A stretch of 64,000 bases of DNA from Agromyces sp. H66. GTDB taxonomy: Bacteria; Actinomycetota; Actinomycetes; Actinomycetales; Microbacteriaceae. A program made the translations under genes and the position numbers. Positions 8,297 to 58,904 of the stretch are shown here, piece after piece. The first letter of the stretch is position 1. Each line of letters starts with the position of its first letter. The DNA is taken from positions 62,001 to 126,000 of the forward strand of contig NZ_SJZG01000001.1 in the NCBI RefSeq assembly GCF_004959775.1, read 5' to 3'. The notes beneath the pieces are model-generated. The model made no database searches, was not told the DNA's origin, and saw only the letters and a list, made by a program, of their open reading frames with translations.

Positions 8297-10006
8297 GTGG
8301 CGCTCAGCAGCATCGAGATCGGTCAGGCGGCGGAGCTCCGACCCATCGGCGCGATCGCGGCCGGCCTGGGCATTACCGACGAGCACCTCGTGCCGTACGG
8401 CCGCTACAAGGCGAAGGTGCCGCTCGCCTACCTCGAGACCCTGACCGACCGCCCGCTGGGCAGGCTCGTGCTGATGACCGGGGTGTCACCCACCCCGGCG
8501 GGCGAAGGCAAGTCCGCGACGTCGGTCGGGCTGGGCGACGCGCTCCGACGCATCGGCGAGCGCTCGATGATCTGCCTGCGCGAGCCCGCCCTCGGCCCGG
8601 TGTTCGGCATGAAGGGCGGCGCCGCCGGCGGCGGGTACGCGCAGCTCGCGCCGATGGAGGACATCAACCTGCACTTCACCGGTGACTTCGCGGCGATCCA
8701 GATCGCCACGAACCTGCTCGCCGCGATGATCGACAACCACGTGCACCACGGCAACGAGCTCGGCATCGACGTGCGCCGGGTCACGTGGCGCCGCGTGCTC
8801 GACGTCAACGACCGGGCGCTGCGCGACATCGTGATCGGACTCGGCGGAACCGGCAACGGGTATCCGCGCGAGGCGGGCTTCGACATCGTCGTCGCGAGCG
8901 AGGTGATGGCGATCTTCTGCCTGGCCACGAGCCTCGCCGACCTCAAGGAGCGGCTCGGCCGGATCGTGGTCGCCCATACCCGCGACCGCAGGCCGGTGCG
9001 CGCGAGCGACCTGCGCGCGCACGGCGCGATGGCCGCCGTCCTGCGCGATGCGCTCGCACCCAACCTCGTGCAGTCGCTCGAGGGCACCCCCGCGTTCGTG
9101 CACGGCGGCCCGTTCGCGAACATCGCGCACGGCACCAACTCGCTCATCGCGACCCGCTCCGCGCTGCGGCTCGCCGACTACGTCGTCACCGAGGCCGGGT
9201 TCGGCACCGACCTCGGCGCGGAGAAGTTCGTCGACATCCTGTGCCGTTCCTCGGGCCTGCGGCCGTCGGCGGCGGTCATCGTGGCGACCGTGCGGGCGAT
9301 GAAGTACCACGGCGGGGTCGCCGTCGGCGACCTCACCACCGAGGACGTGGCCGCCCTCGAGCGCGGGCTGCCCAACCTGGAACGGCACGTGCACATCCTC
9401 CGCGAGGTGTTCGGGATCCCATGCGTCGTGGCGATCAACGAACGCGCCGAGGACACCGAGGCCGAACTCGACGCGCTCGTCGCGGGGGCCGCCCGGTTCG
9501 GGGTTCGCGCCGTGCGGGCGCGTCACTTCGCCGAGGGCGGCGCCGGGGCGGAGGACCTGGCCCGCGAGGTCGTCGCCCTCTGCGGGGACCGCCCGGCCGA
9601 GGCATCCGGTGCCGTGGCGACCTCCGGCGACGGCCTGAGGTTCACCTATACCGACGACGCGTCGCTCTGGCAGAAGATGAAGGCCGTCGCCACGCGCATC
9701 TACGGCGCGTCCGACGTCACCGCATCGACCGCGGTGCGTGCGCAGCTGAAGCGGCTCGAGGAGGAGGGATACGGCCACCTGCCGGTGTGCGTCGCGAAGA
9801 CCCAGTACTCCTTCTCGACCGACGCCAAACTGCGCGGGGCGCCCACGGGCCACGTCGTCGACATCCGCGAGGTGCGGCTCGCCGCCGGCGCGGAGTTCGT
9901 CGTGATGGTGTGCGGCGACATCATGACGATGCCGGGGCTGCCGGTGCGTCCCGCGGCCGAGTCGATCGACGTCACCGACGACGGCCGCATCGTCGGGCTG
10001 TACTGA
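8297..10006 (+). CDS. fhs: formate-tetrahydrofolate ligase
   Basis: ATP-dependent enzyme making 10-formyl-tetrahydrofolate from formate, feeding one-carbon metabolism in the cytoplasm. The 569-residue length is normal. Conserved blocks include the P-loop TPAGEGKS (residues 66-73), [20 protein letters not shown], the [11 protein letters not shown] segment, the [10 protein letters not shown] block and the C-terminal [11 protein letters not shown]. The start is GTG 8297, preceded by AGGAGG. It stands alone between marR and a convergent hydroxylase gene, so it is probably monocistronic and unrelated to its neighbours. It may salvage formate released by catabolism, but nothing in the sequence proves that link. 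Confidence 0.96.
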
Positions 10007-10033
10007 CGCGTCGCCCCGGGCGGGCGAGTCCGC

Positions 10034-12001
10034 TCAGCCGGCTGACCCTCCGGCCATCGCGGGCGCCCGCTGCGGCAGCAGGAACCGCGCGAAGAACTCC
10101 TCGAGTTCGTCGTGGGAGTCCAGCGGCAGCACGTGCGCGACGTACTGGTCGGGCCGCACCACGACGAGGCATCCGTGCTCGCGGTCGATGCCCCGAGCGT
10201 CGAAGACGTCGTCGCCGCGCACCGACGGCGCGAAGGCCTTCTCGTAGTCCGCCAGGCCGTAGCGTCCCTTGTGCGGTCGCAGCAGTTCGGGCAGCGACGT
10301 CGGCTCGACGTCGCGATGGCTCTGCTGCAGGATGCCGCGAACGTCGACGACCGCGTCGGGGTCGGCGCCGTCCGGGGTGAACCGGGCGCCGGGCCCGGCA
10401 CGCCAGGACTCGGCGAACGCGCGCAGCCGCGACCGCGGGTCGTCGATCGGAAGGCGGTCGCCGAAGGCGTAGATGCGCCAGCGGCCGTCGGCCCGGTGGA
10501 CATGGCCGAGCTCGAGGGGCTGGGCGTCGCCGACCCGGGCGACGGGCGCGGAGTGGAAGCGCTCGCCGATCGGGAAGCCCGTCGCGAGGTGCTGCCACGT
10601 GCCCTCGCCGGTGAGCAGGCCCGGCTCGTAGCGGGTGGCCATGCCGGCCGTGTAGCGCCCCTGCTGCTGGAAGTGCCGCTGGAGGGCGGCGGGGTCGACG
10701 CCGTCGTCCGTGCCGGATGCCGTGTCGAGCGGCTTCGCGCTGAGCATCGCGGCCCACTCGCGGTCGAAGTCGATGAGGTCCTGCGCGACCGACTGGCGCT
10801 CCGCCGAGTAGGTGTGCAGCAGTTCCGGCGCGCTGCGGCCCTCGAGCACGGCCGCGAGCTTCCAGCCCAGGTTGAAGGCGTCCTGCATCGACACGTTCAT
10901 CCCCTGACCGGCCTTGGGGCTGTGCGTGTGGCAGGCGTCGCCCGCGACGAACACGCGCGGCGTCCGGGTCGCGAGCGCGTCGTCGGGCACGTCGTCGAAC
11001 TTGTCGGTGAGGCGCTGGCCGATCTCGTACACCGACCACCACACGATCTCCTGGACGTCGAGCGAGTGCGGATGCAGGATGCGGCGGGCCGCCGCGATGA
11101 GGTCGTCGGACGTGATCGCCCGCCCGGCCACGCGCTCGCCCGGCTCGAGCTCGTCCATCTCGATGTAGAGCCGCACGAGGTAGCCGCCCTCGCGCGGGAT
11201 GATGACCATGTTGCCGGCGTCGGCGGACTGGATGACCGACTTGAAGCGGATGTCGGGATAGTCGGTGACCGGGAGCACGTCGATCACGCCCCACGCCTGG
11301 TTCGCCGAGTCGCCGCGCAGTACCCGCCCGATCGACCGCCGCACCGTGCTGCGAGCACCGTCGCAGCCGACGACGTAGCGGGCGCGGATCGTGAGCTCCT
11401 CGCCGTCGTCGACCCGCCGCATCCGCACCGTGACGGGGTGGTCGCCCGCCGCGTCGCCCGCCGCGTCGCCCGTATCGGCGGCCGTCTCGGCGATCTCGAC
11501 GTCGACGACCTCGAGGCCGTAGTCGGGTTCGAGGCGGCGGGGCGAGTTGCGCATCTTCTCGAGCAGGAACTCCTGCACCCGGGCCTGGTTCAGGATGAGG
11601 TGGGGGAACTCCGACAGGCCCTCCTCGACGTCCTGGATCCGGCCGCTGCGTACGATGCGCGACCGATCGTCGGGGTCGGGCCGCCAGAACACGGTCTCGG
11701 TCACCTGGCACGCCTCGGCGAGCAGGCGGTCGGCGACGCCGAACGCCTCGAACATCTCGACCGAGCGGCAGGCGACGCCGTCGGCCTGCCCGAGTTCCAG
11801 CGGTCCTTCCCGGCGCTCGACGATCCTGGTGCTGATGCCGGGGAAGGCTGCCAGTTGCGCGGCGAGCACGCATCCGGCTGGCCCCGTGCCGACGATCAGC
11901 ACGTCGACGGTGTCGGGCAGCTCGGCCGGGTTCGCGAGTGCGGGATCCGCGGGCGGGACGGCCGGATCGCCGGTGTGGAACCCGTTCAGGTACGCCTGCA
12001 T
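10034..12001 (-). CDS. FAD-dependent aromatic hydroxylase (phenol 2-monooxygenase / 3-hydroxybenzoate 4-hydroxylase type)
   Basis: Class A flavoprotein monooxygenase of 655 residues. The dinucleotide motif VGTGPAGCVLAAQL follows an N-terminal extension that begins MQAYLNGFHTGDP, typical of MobA/PheA-like enzymes. The NADPH/FAD motif (YVVGCDGARS) and the second FAD motif GDACHTHSPKAGQGMN come later. The last 170 residues form the thioredoxin-like dimerisation domain of phenol hydroxylases. It hydroxylates a phenolic ring with NADPH and O2. A regulator gene of the tandem-MarR type lies upstream in the same direction. An AT-rich patch (12040-12052, with palindromic ATACGTAT) marks the promoter. 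No ring-cleavage gene is present, so the pathway is incomplete here. Confidence 0.9.
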   Translation of the reverse strand: MQAYLNGFHTGDPAVPPADPALANPAELPDTVDVLIVGTGPAGCVLAAQLAAFPGISTRIVERREGPLELGQADGVACRSVEMFEAFGVADRLLAEACQVTETVFWRPDPDDRSRIVRSGRIQDVEEGLSEFPHLILNQARVQEFLLEKMRNSPRRLEPDYGLEVVDVEIAETAADTGDAAGDAAGDHPVTVRMRRVDDGEELTIRARYVVGCDGARSTVRRSIGRVLRGDSANQAWGVIDVLPVTDYPDIRFKSVIQSADAGNMVIIPREGGYLVRLYIEMDELEPGERVAGRAITSDDLIAAARRILHPHSLDVQEIVWWSVYEIGQRLTDKFDDVPDDALATRTPRVFVAGDACHTHSPKAGQGMNVSMQDAFNLGWKLAAVLEGRSAPELLHTYSAERQSVAQDLIDFDREWAAMLSAKPLDTASGTDDGVDPAALQRHFQQQGRYTAGMATRYEPGLLTGEGTWQHLATGFPIGERFHSAPVARVGDAQPLELGHVHRADGRWRIYAFGDRLPIDDPRSRLRAFAESWRAGPGARFTPDGADPDAVVDVRGILQQSHRDVEPTSLPELLRPHKGRYGLADYEKAFAPSVRGDDVFDARGIDREHGCLVVVRPDQYVAHVLPLDSHDELEEFFARFLLPQRAPAMAGGSAG

Positions 12002-12105
12002 GCTGCTCCTCGTCGTCGATGACGCATTCGCTTCGGGAATTAATACGTATACTGAGGATATGTGACGGGCGATGGTGCCGCAAGGCCGGACTCGGATTCG
12101 CCCGC

Positions 12106-12999
12106 CTAACCGGTCGCGAACGCGATGGGCACGAGGAGCGCGAGGAAGCGCTCACGCTCGGCGGCGTCGAGCGGTTCGAGGAGCCGATCCTGCACGGCGG
12201 CGACCCGTGGCGCGAAGGCGTCGGCGGCTCGGCGCGCCGCCGGGGTCAGCGACAGGACGCGACGCCTGCCGTCGGAGACATCCCGCGCCCGCAGGATCCA
12301 GCCGCGCCCGACCAGCCGCTGCACGAGGTCGGCGGCGGTGGACCTGTCGAGGCCCGCGCGATCGCCGAGCTCGCGCTGGCTGATCGCCGGATGCTCGACG
12401 AGCACGTGCAGCGCCGCGTACTGCGGGCCCGTGAGCTCCCGGCCGAACTCGTCGGCGAACAGCGCGGTGTGCACCTGCTGCGCGCGACGGAGCAGATGGC
12501 CGGGGATGTGCATGGGCGAGAAGCCGGCGCCGTGCGCGGGTTCCGCGCGTGCGACCCGGCGGAGCAGGTCGACGAAGGCCTCACGCGCCCCCGGGGGCAG
12601 CGGTTCGAGCAGCCGGTCCTGCACGCGCCGCACCCGCGGCCGGAGTCCATCGAGGGCGGCGGCCGCCCCGTCGGTCGTCGTCAACATGTCGCGTCGCCCG
12701 TCGGCAGGGTCGCGCTCGCGTGCGATCCAGCCGCGACGAGCCAGGCGCGCGACCACGTCCATCGTCGAGGACGTGTCGAGCGAGGCGAGCTCGCCGACCT
12801 GGCGCTGATCGAGGCCGGGGGATGCCGCGATCGCGGCGAGCACGGCGTACTGCGGGCTCGTCGGCGCGGCGCCGACCTCGTGGAGCCAGAGCGCGTTGTG
12901 CACCTGTTGCGCGCGGCGCAGCAGGTGGCCGCACACCGCGCCGAGCGGCACGCCGCCGAGCGGCCGGGATGTCGCGTGCTCCGACGCCTCCTCCGTCAC
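12106..12999 (-). CDS. double-length MarR regulator (two tandem MarR domains in one chain)
   Basis: A 297-residue protein made of two complete MarR modules. Module 1 runs from about residue 24 to 150 and module 2 from about 167 to 293. The same peptides recur at an offset of 143 residues: GHLLRRAQQVH (24 and 167) and VQDRLLEPL (126 and 269). Both keep the helix-turn-helix (PGLDQRQVGELASLD; PAISQRELGDRAGLD) and the wing DGRR motif. A normal MarR is about 150 residues and dimerises, so this one could bind an operator as a single-chain pseudodimer. GTG 12999 is used as start; longer frames run into the MFS gene. It follows the MFS gene by seven bases and probably controls it and/or the hydroxylase. 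Confidence 0.88.
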   Translation of the reverse strand: MTEEASEHATSRPLGGVPLGAVCGHLLRRAQQVHNALWLHEVGAAPTSPQYAVLAAIAASPGLDQRQVGELASLDTSSTMDVVARLARRGWIARERDPADGRRDMLTTTDGAAAALDGLRPRVRRVQDRLLEPLPPGAREAFVDLLRRVARAEPAHGAGFSPMHIPGHLLRRAQQVHTALFADEFGRELTGPQYAALHVLVEHPAISQRELGDRAGLDRSTAADLVQRLVGRGWILRARDVSDGRRRVLSLTPAARRAADAFAPRVAAVQDRLLEPLDAAERERFLALLVPIAFATG

Positions 13000-56493: not shown

Positions 56494-56535
56494 GTTGCCC
56501 GATCGGGCAACAGCTGCTGCCCGCACGGGCAGCAG
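56494..56535. promoter_or_regulatory. two phased palindromic operators before the HExxH protein gene
   Basis: GTTGCCCGATCGGGCAAC (56494-56511) is a perfect 18-bp palindrome. A second one with arms CTGCTGCCCG and CGGGCAGCAG around CA spans 56514-56535. Both share the core TGCCCG-N2-CGGGCA. Their centres are 22 bp apart, about two helical turns, so two dimers would sit on the same face. They lie in the 114-bp gap after the arsR stop, 39 bases above the next start. A terminator role for the upstream operon is a weaker alternative. Confidence 0.65.
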
Positions 56536-56573
56536 TGGTGCGGTGTCCGTGTCGCGGCGGTAGCGTCCGATCC

Positions 56574-58904
56574 ATGCGAGGTACGGCAGGCGCGAAGCCC
56601 GGCGTGCGTCCCGGCCGGCCGGTCCCGCATCCGGTTGTGGGCGCCGCGCGTTCGCAGCGGCCGTCCGCCCCGGTGGCGGGCCGCGCCGCGACGACCGCAC
56701 CGGCGCTGCCCAGGATCTCGATGAACCCTTCATCGGGACTCATGCGCATGCCGGGCGCCGACCTGCTCGCGTTGCAGCGCACGGGCGGGAACGCCGCCAC
56801 CGCCCGGTTCGTCGCGGCATCCGCTCGCGACGGGGTCGGCGATGACAGGACACGGATGACCGTTGCGCGCCAGGCCACGCTCGTCGTCCCGCCCGAGCTG
56901 ACGCTCACGCCGACAACGCCGACGAATCCGAACATGAGCATGGCACCGTGGGCGACCGGTGGCGGAGGTCCGGCGCCGCGCGCCGCGCCGATCGGTGCCG
57001 ACGGCCGACCGCTTCCCGACCGGTACACGTCGCTGCTGCGGCCCGCTCTCGGCGAGGGCGACGCGAACCGGCTGCGGCAGGCGACCGGCGGCAGCGATCT
57101 GGTGGGCATGATCGAGCGACGTGACTCGGCCCGCCGGGCACTCGCCGACATGGAGGCCAGGGCGCGCACCGCCGGCGGTGACCAGGGCGGCCTGTTCGAG
57201 GAGTACGCCACCGCGCACGGCTATGAGGCGGACCTCACGAAGCGCATCGACGCGCGGCTGGCGCAGCTCGGTGTCGCCGACGAGGCGGCGCTGCTGCGCC
57301 TCGTGAACGAGGAGTTCCCGCGAATGGTCCTCCGCGAGGCGCGTCTCGTGGCCGACGGCATGCTCGACGCCAACGAGGAGCAGGCCCGCGCCGAGCAGGA
57401 GCGCTACTCGCAGAACGTGTGCAGCCCGGACATCGACGGGCTGCTCGACGCCGACCGCACCCTCGGCGAGATCGACCCGCACCCCATCGAGATGTCGATC
57501 CGCGTCGCCGAGGAGGCCCTGCGCCGGTTCCGCCCGGTGGCCGGCGTGCCGACGGCCGAGGAGTTCGAGGCGATGATCCCCGAGGGCGAGCGGAGCGTGC
57601 TCGTCGACATCGCGAACCTCGAGAAGAACCGGCAACTCCAACCGCAACGTCGCGCCGTCTACGATGCCGCCCGGTTCGGGTTCGGACGCGACTACCCGAT
57701 CCTGCTCAACTCGACGTACCGCCCCGGCATGTTCTCGAGGGCTCCCTACGATGAACTCGGCGAGGTCGTGCGCGGACCCGTGGCCGACATCCTCGAGAAC
57801 ATCGCCCGGGTGCGCGGCGCCATCGCCGACGACGAGCTCAAGGTGTGGAACCTGCACAACGTGCTCCAGATCACGCTGCAGCGGCTCGGGGTCGAGGACC
57901 CGGTGCTCATCGGAGCCGTGCGACGTCGCATCGCCGAGATCGAGTCCGACGAGACCTTCCTCGGCTGGGTGAAGGTCGCGCTCGCGATCGTGACCTCCGT
58001 GGTCGCGGGCCTCGTGTTCACCCCGGCCGTCGGCATGGCGGTCGCGGCCGCGTGGGGAGCCGGCAACCTCGCAGGCAGCATCTCGGAGTACCGCACCGAG
58101 TCCGCCGCCGAGAACGTCGCGGTCGAGGAATCCGTCGCCGACATCTCGTTGAAGGAGCCGACGCTCACGTGGGTGGTCATCGACGCCCTGTCGCTCGGCC
58201 TCGAGCTCGGGCCGCTCGCGCGGGCGGTGCGTCCGAGCGCGCGGGCCCTCGGGGCGATGCGGACTCCCGAGGCGCTCGGCGCGTTCCGCGCCCGGGCGGC
58301 GACGGTGGTCGGCGACGAGGCCGCCGACGAGCTCGGCCGCAAGGCCGCGACGCGGTTCGGGGTCGCAGGAGACGCCGCGGCATCCGCCGACACCGCCGCC
58401 GCCGACGTCGCCGCCGATGTCGCGAACGCCGGCGAGCGAGCGCGGTTCCACAAGGCGACGGTCAGGGGCGAAGCATCGAAGCCCGCCGGCCACGGCGGCA
58501 CCAACCGGTACGGCGACTACTGGTACTCGACGCAGGGCACGGTCGCCGAGCAGAACCTCGCGAGGTTCCACGAACAGGTGCACTCGATCCTGAGCCCGAA
58601 ACTGCTCCTGTTCCGCGAGTTCCGGGCCAGCCTCGGCATGACGCTCTACAAGAAGTCCTACATCATGCGCGGCCTCGAGGAGGCCCTCGCCGAGACGGTC
58701 GCGCAGCTCCGCGTCAACGGCATCAAGGGCCTGCCGACCGGCCTGATGTTCCCCATCAAGAACGGCTACCTGACCGTGTCGACGGCGGCCGACGCGGCGC
58801 GGCTCGGGGGTGAGATCGTGCTGGGCACGGTGATCGTCTCGGGCTACTCGTACACCGTGTACTGGATCGCGACGCGCGACACCTCGTCGGCGAGCGGGGA
58901 CTGA
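56574..58904 (+). CDS. LQRxxGN-motif protein with C-terminal HExxH (gluzincin-like) domain; possible eCIS/polymorphic-toxin cargo
   Basis: A 776-residue protein. The N-terminal 60 residues are Arg/Pro/Ala-rich and disordered. Then comes LLALQRTGGNAATARFV (residues 64-80), a form of the LQRxxGNxxVxRL motif that I associate with actinobacterial DUF4157 and extracellular contractile injection proteins. A helical middle with long charged segments (about 150-440) leads to a hydrophobic pair (about 460-500, VKVALAIVTSVVAGLVFTPAVGMAVAAAWGAG), then an Ala-rich linker (600-635). The C-terminal domain has HEQVH (666-670) and EEALAET (702-708), a zinc-peptidase-like layout, and ends with a hydrophobic segment (GEIVLGTVIVSGYSYTVYWIA). 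There is no signal peptide. TAGCGT (56561-56566) could be a -10 box for a leaderless message. Confidence 0.75.
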   Translation: MRGTAGAKPGVRPGRPVPHPVVGAARSQRPSAPVAGRAATTAPALPRISMNPSSGLMRMPGADLLALQRTGGNAATARFVAASARDGVGDDRTRMTVARQATLVVPPELTLTPTTPTNPNMSMAPWATGGGGPAPRAAPIGADGRPLPDRYTSLLRPALGEGDANRLRQATGGSDLVGMIERRDSARRALADMEARARTAGGDQGGLFEEYATAHGYEADLTKRIDARLAQLGVADEAALLRLVNEEFPRMVLREARLVADGMLDANEEQARAEQERYSQNVCSPDIDGLLDADRTLGEIDPHPIEMSIRVAEEALRRFRPVAGVPTAEEFEAMIPEGERSVLVDIANLEKNRQLQPQRRAVYDAARFGFGRDYPILLNSTYRPGMFSRAPYDELGEVVRGPVADILENIARVRGAIADDELKVWNLHNVLQITLQRLGVEDPVLIGAVRRRIAEIESDETFLGWVKVALAIVTSVVAGLVFTPAVGMAVAAAWGAGNLAGSISEYRTESAAENVAVEESVADISLKEPTLTWVVIDALSLGLELGPLARAVRPSARALGAMRTPEALGAFRARAATVVGDEAADELGRKAATRFGVAGDAAASADTAAADVAADVANAGERARFHKATVRGEASKPAGHGGTNRYGDYWYSTQGTVAEQNLARFHEQVHSILSPKLLLFREFRASLGMTLYKKSYIMRGLEEALAETVAQLRVNGIKGLPTGLMFPIKNGYLTVSTAADAARLGGEIVLGTVIVSGYSYTVYWIATRDTSSASGD

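Follow-up and report, generated by a model that had tools for sequence, protein, structure and literature searches.

A probable cargo of an extracellular contractile injection system in Agromyces sp. H66, encoded away from its machine, shares a promoter palindrome and an N-terminal motif with the system's own genes

Toxins associated with extracellular contractile injection systems (eCIS), in the passages of PMC8213781 and PMC11297309 that describe them, occur in genomes encoding an eCIS and join a long linker or trunk to an enzyme-like C-terminal domain. The same outline is seen in P0001, a 776-residue protein of the soil bacterium Agromyces sp. H66. Its gene sits 118.6 kb into contig C1 (682 kb), inside the 64,000-nucleotide stretch analysed here (the window, C1:62001-126000). 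The fusion to an eCIS_core domain described in those passages has its counterpart in an Actinoplanes relative of P0001. P0001 differs in having no eCIS_core domain of its own, in the distance of its gene from the eCIS, and in a shared sequence motif, LQRxxGN (the LQR motif). New here is a DNA palindrome that stands ahead of the genes for P0001, for eCIS_core proteins and for other LQR proteins. P0001 is probably a cargo of the eCIS regulon, encoded in trans, away from the genome's own eCIS; its loading, peptidase activity and target we infer.

Effectors of Streptomyces contractile injection systems, in parts of PMC11126660 and PMC13277306, are also actinobacterial, and their link to DUF4157 is in cis for Tme and by way of a partner protein for Sle1. 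Unlike P0001, Tme and Sle1 are encoded within the injection system cluster, and their C-termini are endonuclease-like (Tme) or a helical globule (Sle1) rather than an HExxH domain. An excerpt of PMC13277306 has the cargo binding the DUF4157 protein, with both encoded beside the structural genes. The toxin search outlined in an excerpt of PMC11297309 counts DUF4157 and how far a gene lies from the last core gene among its features; according to that excerpt, no conserved loading sequence was detected. Zinc metallopeptidase effectors of the type VI VgrG2b kind, such as SARI_02727 (part of PMC12992299), resemble P0001 in combining HExxH with a further ligand residue, and their type VI setting is that of the two Gram-negative relatives of P0001; P0001 is at most a candidate member of this kind, as a profile of its C-terminus matches no PDB chain by sequence. 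Polymorphic toxin systems and PVC-metallopeptidase toxins, as presented in sections of PMC3482391, set swapped C-termini on a constant trunk, as does the P0001 family, and PVC toxins are reported there without adjacent immunity genes, which is likewise the case for P0001. P0001 differs from them in having no Pfam match over the cut-off and in a gene unlinked from the machine. Among the matches listed in searches of mostly open-access literature, no report was found of an unlinked eCIS effector or of an eCIS operator.

The features of P0001 and its promoter, in window coordinates, are these:

56496 to 56509, no strand assigned: operator-like palindrome 1, TGCCCGATCGGGCA, upstream of P0001
56518 to 56531, no strand assigned: operator-like palindrome 2, TGCCCGCACGGGCA, whose start is 22 bp, or about two helical turns, past that of palindrome 1
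56561 to 56566, forward strand: TAGCGT, a possible -10 element 7 nucleotides before the ATG, similar in the two Agromyces orthologues (L003, L004); it would imply a leaderless transcript
56574 to 58904, forward strand: coding sequence of the 776-residue P0001, with ATG at 56574 and stop at 58904; a poorly conserved N-terminus with the LQR motif, a trunk and a C-terminal HExxH domain
56763 to 56813, forward strand: LLALQRTGGNAATARFV, residues 64-80, a segment shared with other palindrome-linked proteins, with the putative operon cargo and with the eCIS_core protein
56991 to 58367, forward strand: trunk, residues 140-598; an Actinoplanes protein bearing eCIS_core and another C-terminus is 52% identical here
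57975 to 58031, forward strand: hydrophobic segment, residues 468-486, from a Kyte-Doolittle scan
58428 to 58901, forward strand: C-terminal zinc-peptidase-like domain, residues 619-776
58569 to 58583, forward strand: HEQVH, residues 666-670, predicted zinc-binding HExxH, with H666, E667 and H670 invariant in five sequences
58677 to 58697, forward strand: EEALAET, residues 702-708, candidate source of the third zinc ligand, with E703 and E707 invariant

The initial annotation of this DNA had placed the open reading frame, the LQR segment, HEQVH and EEALAET where they are found, and the absence of a signal peptide, judged by eye, agrees with it as well. It had also described a hydrophobic pair near residues 460-500, of which one clear segment (468-486) remains and no second rises above the scan cut-off of 1.6.

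The exact 14-mer TGCCCGATCGGGCA occurs twice in the 4.23-Mb genome, ahead of the P0001 gene and ahead of an LQR gene on contig C33, against expectations of 0.06 copies from composition (GC content of 0.705 assumed) or 0.14 from a third-order Markov model derived from 142 kb. Measured against TGCCCGNNCGGGCA, the pair at P0001 recurs at the orthologue in Agromyces sp. Marseille-P2726 (L003), again 22 bp apart and with 1 mismatch in the second copy, and Agromyces salentinus (L004) has one copy with 1 mismatch. The genome's own eCIS locus has a copy with 1 mismatch 95 nucleotides ahead of the sheath gene, and its eCIS_core gene is preceded by tandem palindromes, 22 bp apart, with 1 and 2 mismatches. 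The part of the eCIS on contig C6 has no palindrome within 1 mismatch. A scan for sigma-70 promoters and terminators gave no match.

Across 60 genomes of the genus, 21 exact copies of the 14-mer were found in 17 genomes. Of the 21 genomes in which eCIS_core has a match 15 carry the 14-mer, and of the other 39 only 2 do (Fisher p = 1.1e-7, a value too small since relatedness among genomes is ignored); two copies in the eCIS_core-free genomes do not exceed what the Markov model predicts. The eCIS_core genomes G430 and G444 have only a weak, divergent core and lack the 14-mer. A strict LQR motif lies downstream of 15 of the 21 exact copies, never on both strands. Counted by strand direction, the motif falls within 350 nucleotides in 15 of 42 cases at these sites; for random positions in the window and in loci L003, L004, L006 and L009 the figure is 34 of 6000. 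The 15 LQR genes are four eCIS_core genes, P0001 and its orthologue in G443, and nine others. By eye, a degenerate LQR motif can be seen at three more sites (L041, L043, L052); among those remaining, L037 runs into a contig end, and L034 and L042, in genomes without eCIS_core, have no LQR gene. Apart from the four eCIS_core sites and one on the eCIS contig of G431, the palindrome-linked genes lie on other contigs than eCIS_core or, where they share its contig, 0.2-3.3 Mb from it.

The converse comparison begins from the eCIS_core genes, with 22 matches in 21 genus genomes. Eighteen were analysed (G414, which has no upstream sequence, and three divergent cores missed by the search pattern, those of G430 and G444 and the second match of G405, were not counted), and all 18 of these LQR-bearing genes have a palindrome copy at -214 to -236 from the LQR codon, with no mismatch to the 14-mer in 4, one in 7 and two in 7. 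In each of the 18 promoters, at most 1.2% of 500 mononucleotide shuffles contained a copy as good. A second palindrome 22 bp away, taken as 0-1 mismatch to TGCCCGNNCGGGCA, was considered as a general trait and rejected, since just two of the 21 exact sites have one, that of P0001 (L046) and that of the orthologue in G443 (L049); tandem near-copies do also occur at some eCIS_core promoters.

Peptidoglycan-binding domains are found in the palindrome-linked proteins at L016, L036, L040 and L053. In G420 and G437, the protein downstream of the exact palindrome (L040:131-1438 and L053:560-1897) combines LQRTAGN, PG_binding_1 and HEGGH, and is a second, different HExxH candidate. Palindrome-linked proteins of G405 (L052:2006-3454) and G421 (L041:1564-2976) have a degenerate motif, AGNRAV, and an SHG stretch that looks caspase-like by eye.

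The LQR motif itself is more than a chance resemblance. Its DNA pattern YTNCARCGNNNNNNNGGNAAY has 7 matches in the Agromyces sp. H66 genome, compared with 2 for a control pattern, and 5 of the 7 are proteins with the extended form [LM]LxLQRxxGNxA, which the other two lack. The five proteins are:

P0001, with LLALQRTGGNAATARFV
the eCIS_core protein, with LLRLQREAGNGAVSDLV
the putative operon cargo, with LLALQRDAGNAAVSALL
a protein with a peptidoglycan-binding domain on C33, with MLRLQRLAGNAAVSAYL
a protein with an OmpA domain on C1, with LLALQRTAGNAAVAADV

The tie between the LQR region and eCIS-linked proteins, put forward in the initial annotation, is supported by the LQRxAGN motif in the genome's eCIS_core protein and in the putative operon cargo. 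Searches of mostly open-access text found no mention of the motif under six literal spellings, nor of eCIS together with LQR and Actino. The C33 protein (L016:1330-2745) carries LQRLAGN and PG_binding_1, and its gene has the genome's only other exact palindrome. The OmpA-domain protein (L011:307-1680), with LQRTAGN and the OmpA domain at its C-terminus, is encoded about 57 kb downstream of the P0001 gene.

The initial annotation saw no injection genes in the window and advised a genome-wide search, which located tube, sheath and eCIS_core genes on other contigs. In this assembly of 33 contigs, eCIS genes lie at the end of C6 and the start of C29, probably two parts of one locus split by the assembly, as their positions at contig ends suggest. 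C29 encodes a gp19 tube protein, a sheath protein, a 1325-residue putative cargo, a 240-residue eCIS_core protein (E from 3.5e-33 to 1e-32, the genome's sole eCIS_core match) and a winged-helix AAA ATPase; C6 encodes a second gp19, a CIS_tube and LysM protein, a Phage_GPD/base_V spike protein and baseplate J. The putative cargo (L006:4031-8008, reverse strand of C29) carries LQRDAGN, and its C-terminus has a deaminase-like stretch with APOBEC-type Pfam matches below the cut-off.

Two regulators are encoded close to these genes, a BTAD regulator near the end of C6 and a 585-residue GerE (LuxR-type) regulator on C29 (C29:11704-13458), whose gene is separated from that of the eCIS ATPase by about 0.7 kb. 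LuxR-type boxes resemble CTGNCCNNNNGGNCAG, a form matched by the palindrome if C and G stand at its two sides; the copy at P0001 has T and A there. The likeness to a LuxR box, together with the GerE gene at the eCIS locus, makes GerE the first candidate for the regulator, with BTAD as the alternative. A passage of PMC8213781 notes the GerE/LuxR-type class beside 25.8% of eCIS loci.

The trunk of P0001 provides a further link to eCIS. In Actinoplanes sp. KI2 (L005), a reading frame open for 1141 residues, taken from the ATG at 9452 as a 973-residue protein (9452-12373), encodes VQQTGGN, an eCIS_core domain (6.6e-23), the P0001 trunk (52% identity over 459 aligned residues) and then a different C-terminus. 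This fusion places the trunk in an eCIS_core protein and shows a swapped tip on a constant trunk. One trunk with different C-terminal domains is a trait of polymorphic toxins, here with one other C-terminus seen, and the reading of the C-terminus as toxin-like and exchangeable is supported on this ground and by the type VI relatives described next. By eye, the Actinoplanes C-terminus has an ExK-like stretch, perhaps of a nuclease, and no Pfam match.

The C-terminus of P0001 has an alphaproteobacterial and a gammaproteobacterial relative, the two identities being 32% and 38%. That of Polymorphobacter megasporae (326 residues) adjoins Hcp, with an SMI1/KNR4 gene beyond, and that of Salmonella enterica subsp. 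houtenae (311 residues) lies in an island whose annotated products include Hcp, PAAR and two Vgr proteins. In these two and the three Agromyces orthologues, H666, E667, H670, E703 and E707 are invariant and E702 is not, an HExxH...E signature from which a zinc-peptidase function is predicted. The zinc-peptidase layout proposed in the initial annotation survives as conservation of HExxH and a distal glutamate in five sequences; the zincin fold stays a prediction at a model confidence of 41, and no sequence profile matches. Pfam holds Tox-MPTase models, and among the known metallopeptidase toxin families in Pfam and NCBIfam none has a profile matching the domain over the cut-off. Whole P0001 found nothing over the cut-off in Pfam (the best, DUF1269, at E = 0.1) and no profile match in NCBIfam or PHROGs, and as a single sequence it gave five PDB matches, all outside the C-terminus and at E 0.27 or worse. 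Viral contigs gave no match to the C-terminus, to its alignment or to the Salmonella relative, and the Salmonella relative had no DNA match in E. coli genomes. A broken copy of the type VI relative, with in-frame stops, is present on a plasmid of Polymorphobacter sp. PAMC 29334 (L018:5630-6400).

The P0001 gene is real and under purifying selection. Its codon-position GC content (0.72, 0.53, 0.91) is that of coding genes in this GC-rich genome, and its orthologues in Agromyces sp. Marseille-P2726 and Agromyces salentinus are 79% and 78% identical. Ratios of nonsynonymous to synonymous substitution (dN/dS) among the three Agromyces orthologues are 0.16-0.18 for the trunk (residues 140-598), 0.26-0.39 for the C-terminus (residues 620-776) and 0.55-1.20, nearly free, for residues 1-60. 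The 22 codons around the LQR motif stand at 0.12-0.77; by these values the motif forms a more conserved island within a freely diverging N-terminus. Weak genus matches to the whole-protein profile in G414, G442 and G446 were rejected as P0001 relatives, as they overlap the eCIS_core matches of those genomes. The Marseille-P2726 locus alone shares two genes just upstream of the P0001 gene, there 9.4 kb further up, and one more gene whose match in the window is about 41 kb away.

P0001 carries both of the marks by which we define an Agromyces eCIS regulon here, the promoter palindrome, in tandem, and the N-terminal LQRxxGN. On the reading of P0001 as cargo, a regulator, perhaps the LuxR/GerE-type protein near the eCIS ATPase, would switch on the machine and its scattered cargo genes together. 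The LQR segment would mark P0001 for the particle, probably via the eCIS_core protein or the AAA ATPase, the trunk would serve as the packaging and translocation part, and the HExxH...E domain would be a zinc peptidase acting on a protein in the target cell. We give roughly even odds to a wider proposal, that Agromyces eCISs draw on scattered cargo genes by two portable signatures, a docking LLxLQRxAGNxAV segment and a TGCCCGATCGGGCA operator read by an eCIS-linked LuxR/GerE regulator, with P0001 one such cargo and its peptidase domain common with type VI islands. The link to eCIS made in the initial annotation stands in the eCIS of the genome, in the LQR motif of the eCIS_core protein and putative operon cargo, in the fusion of trunk and eCIS_core and in the operator-like site; it does not extend to a DUF4157/eCIS_core domain in P0001.

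Several results count against P0001 as eCIS cargo. It fails two usual markers of eCIS toxins, as no PF13699 (eCIS_core/DUF4157) domain was found in it by profile and its gene on C1 is neither in nor beside the eCIS operon on C6 and C29. The family occurs in 3 of the 60 genus genomes, all three with eCIS_core, an association that is weak alone (hypergeometric p = 0.039, again too small, as related genomes are not independent). No relatives of the trunk were found in 395 other sampled genomes of the phylum, and none of the C-terminus in 393 others of the class apart from a match in G211 (22.5 bits, E = 2.2e-4), which overlaps an NmrA-like reading frame on the opposite strand (by eye) and is read as chance. 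A tblastn comparison of the 10-kb flanks, with open reading frames picked by a GC-based caller, found no gene neighbour that all three species share, and hence no immunity gene. At L011, the 3-kb locus lacks any palindrome that comes within 2 mismatches of the N2 form. The divergent cores of G430 and G444 and the second match of G405 lack an LQR motif in the 1.2-1.3 kb examined, where the closest approach to the palindrome has 4-5 mismatches; promoters of the long reading frames may fall outside this span. The AlphaFold2 model, built from three close sequences, is uninformative (predicted local distance difference test 41.2, predicted template modelling score 0.31); three strands followed by the HExxH helix and then the E helix would suit a zincin but prove nothing.

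A shared palindrome and LQR motif are no proof of loading, and P0001 might belong to the eCIS regulon and yet stay in the producing cell as a protease for particle processing, maturation or release. That the eCIS_core domain is itself an HExxH domain of unknown role (a passage of PMC8213781) speaks for such a protease, as does the lack of an immunity gene beside P0001. We consider it unlikely, since the C-terminus is exchanged in Actinoplanes and has relatives in type VI islands, as effectors do, and since the family is absent from 18 of the 21 eCIS_core genomes of the genus, whose machines do not need P0001.

Less probable again is a polymorphic toxin that leaves the cell independently of the eCIS, for instance by type VII secretion or cell lysis, with motif and palindrome belonging to a broader stress or development regulon that includes the eCIS. 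The peptidoglycan-binding domains at L016, L036, L040 and L053, which could act on the producer's own envelope, and the OmpA domain of the L011 protein would suit such a regulon; the palindrome, however, tracks eCIS_core across the genus and stands at the promoter of every LQR-bearing eCIS_core gene that has upstream sequence (18 genes), and its two sites in eCIS_core-free genomes have no LQR gene. We regard as very improbable an ordinary or inactive protein in which HEQVH is a chance helix motif with no catalytic role. The missing Pfam, NCBIfam, PHROG and C-terminal PDB profile matches and the low model confidence are what such a protein would show, but purifying selection and the five invariant residues, kept even in proteobacterial relatives at 32% and 38% identity, argue otherwise.

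With P0001 read as eCIS cargo, dispersed genes are linked to the eCIS by a motif in the protein together with a palindrome in the DNA, which bears on how eCISs choose their cargo. The pair could reveal cargo unseen by operon-based searches and, if the reading is true, would allow genome-wide cargo discovery without operon linkage. The LQR segment is a concrete candidate for a loading tag and the palindrome a candidate target site for an eCIS-linked class of regulator, and to these P0001 adds a peptidase-like domain without a Pfam match that is common to eCIS and type VI settings. The shared motif and control site suggest a way in which these phage-tail-like machines might draw on cargo encoded at distant sites of the genome.

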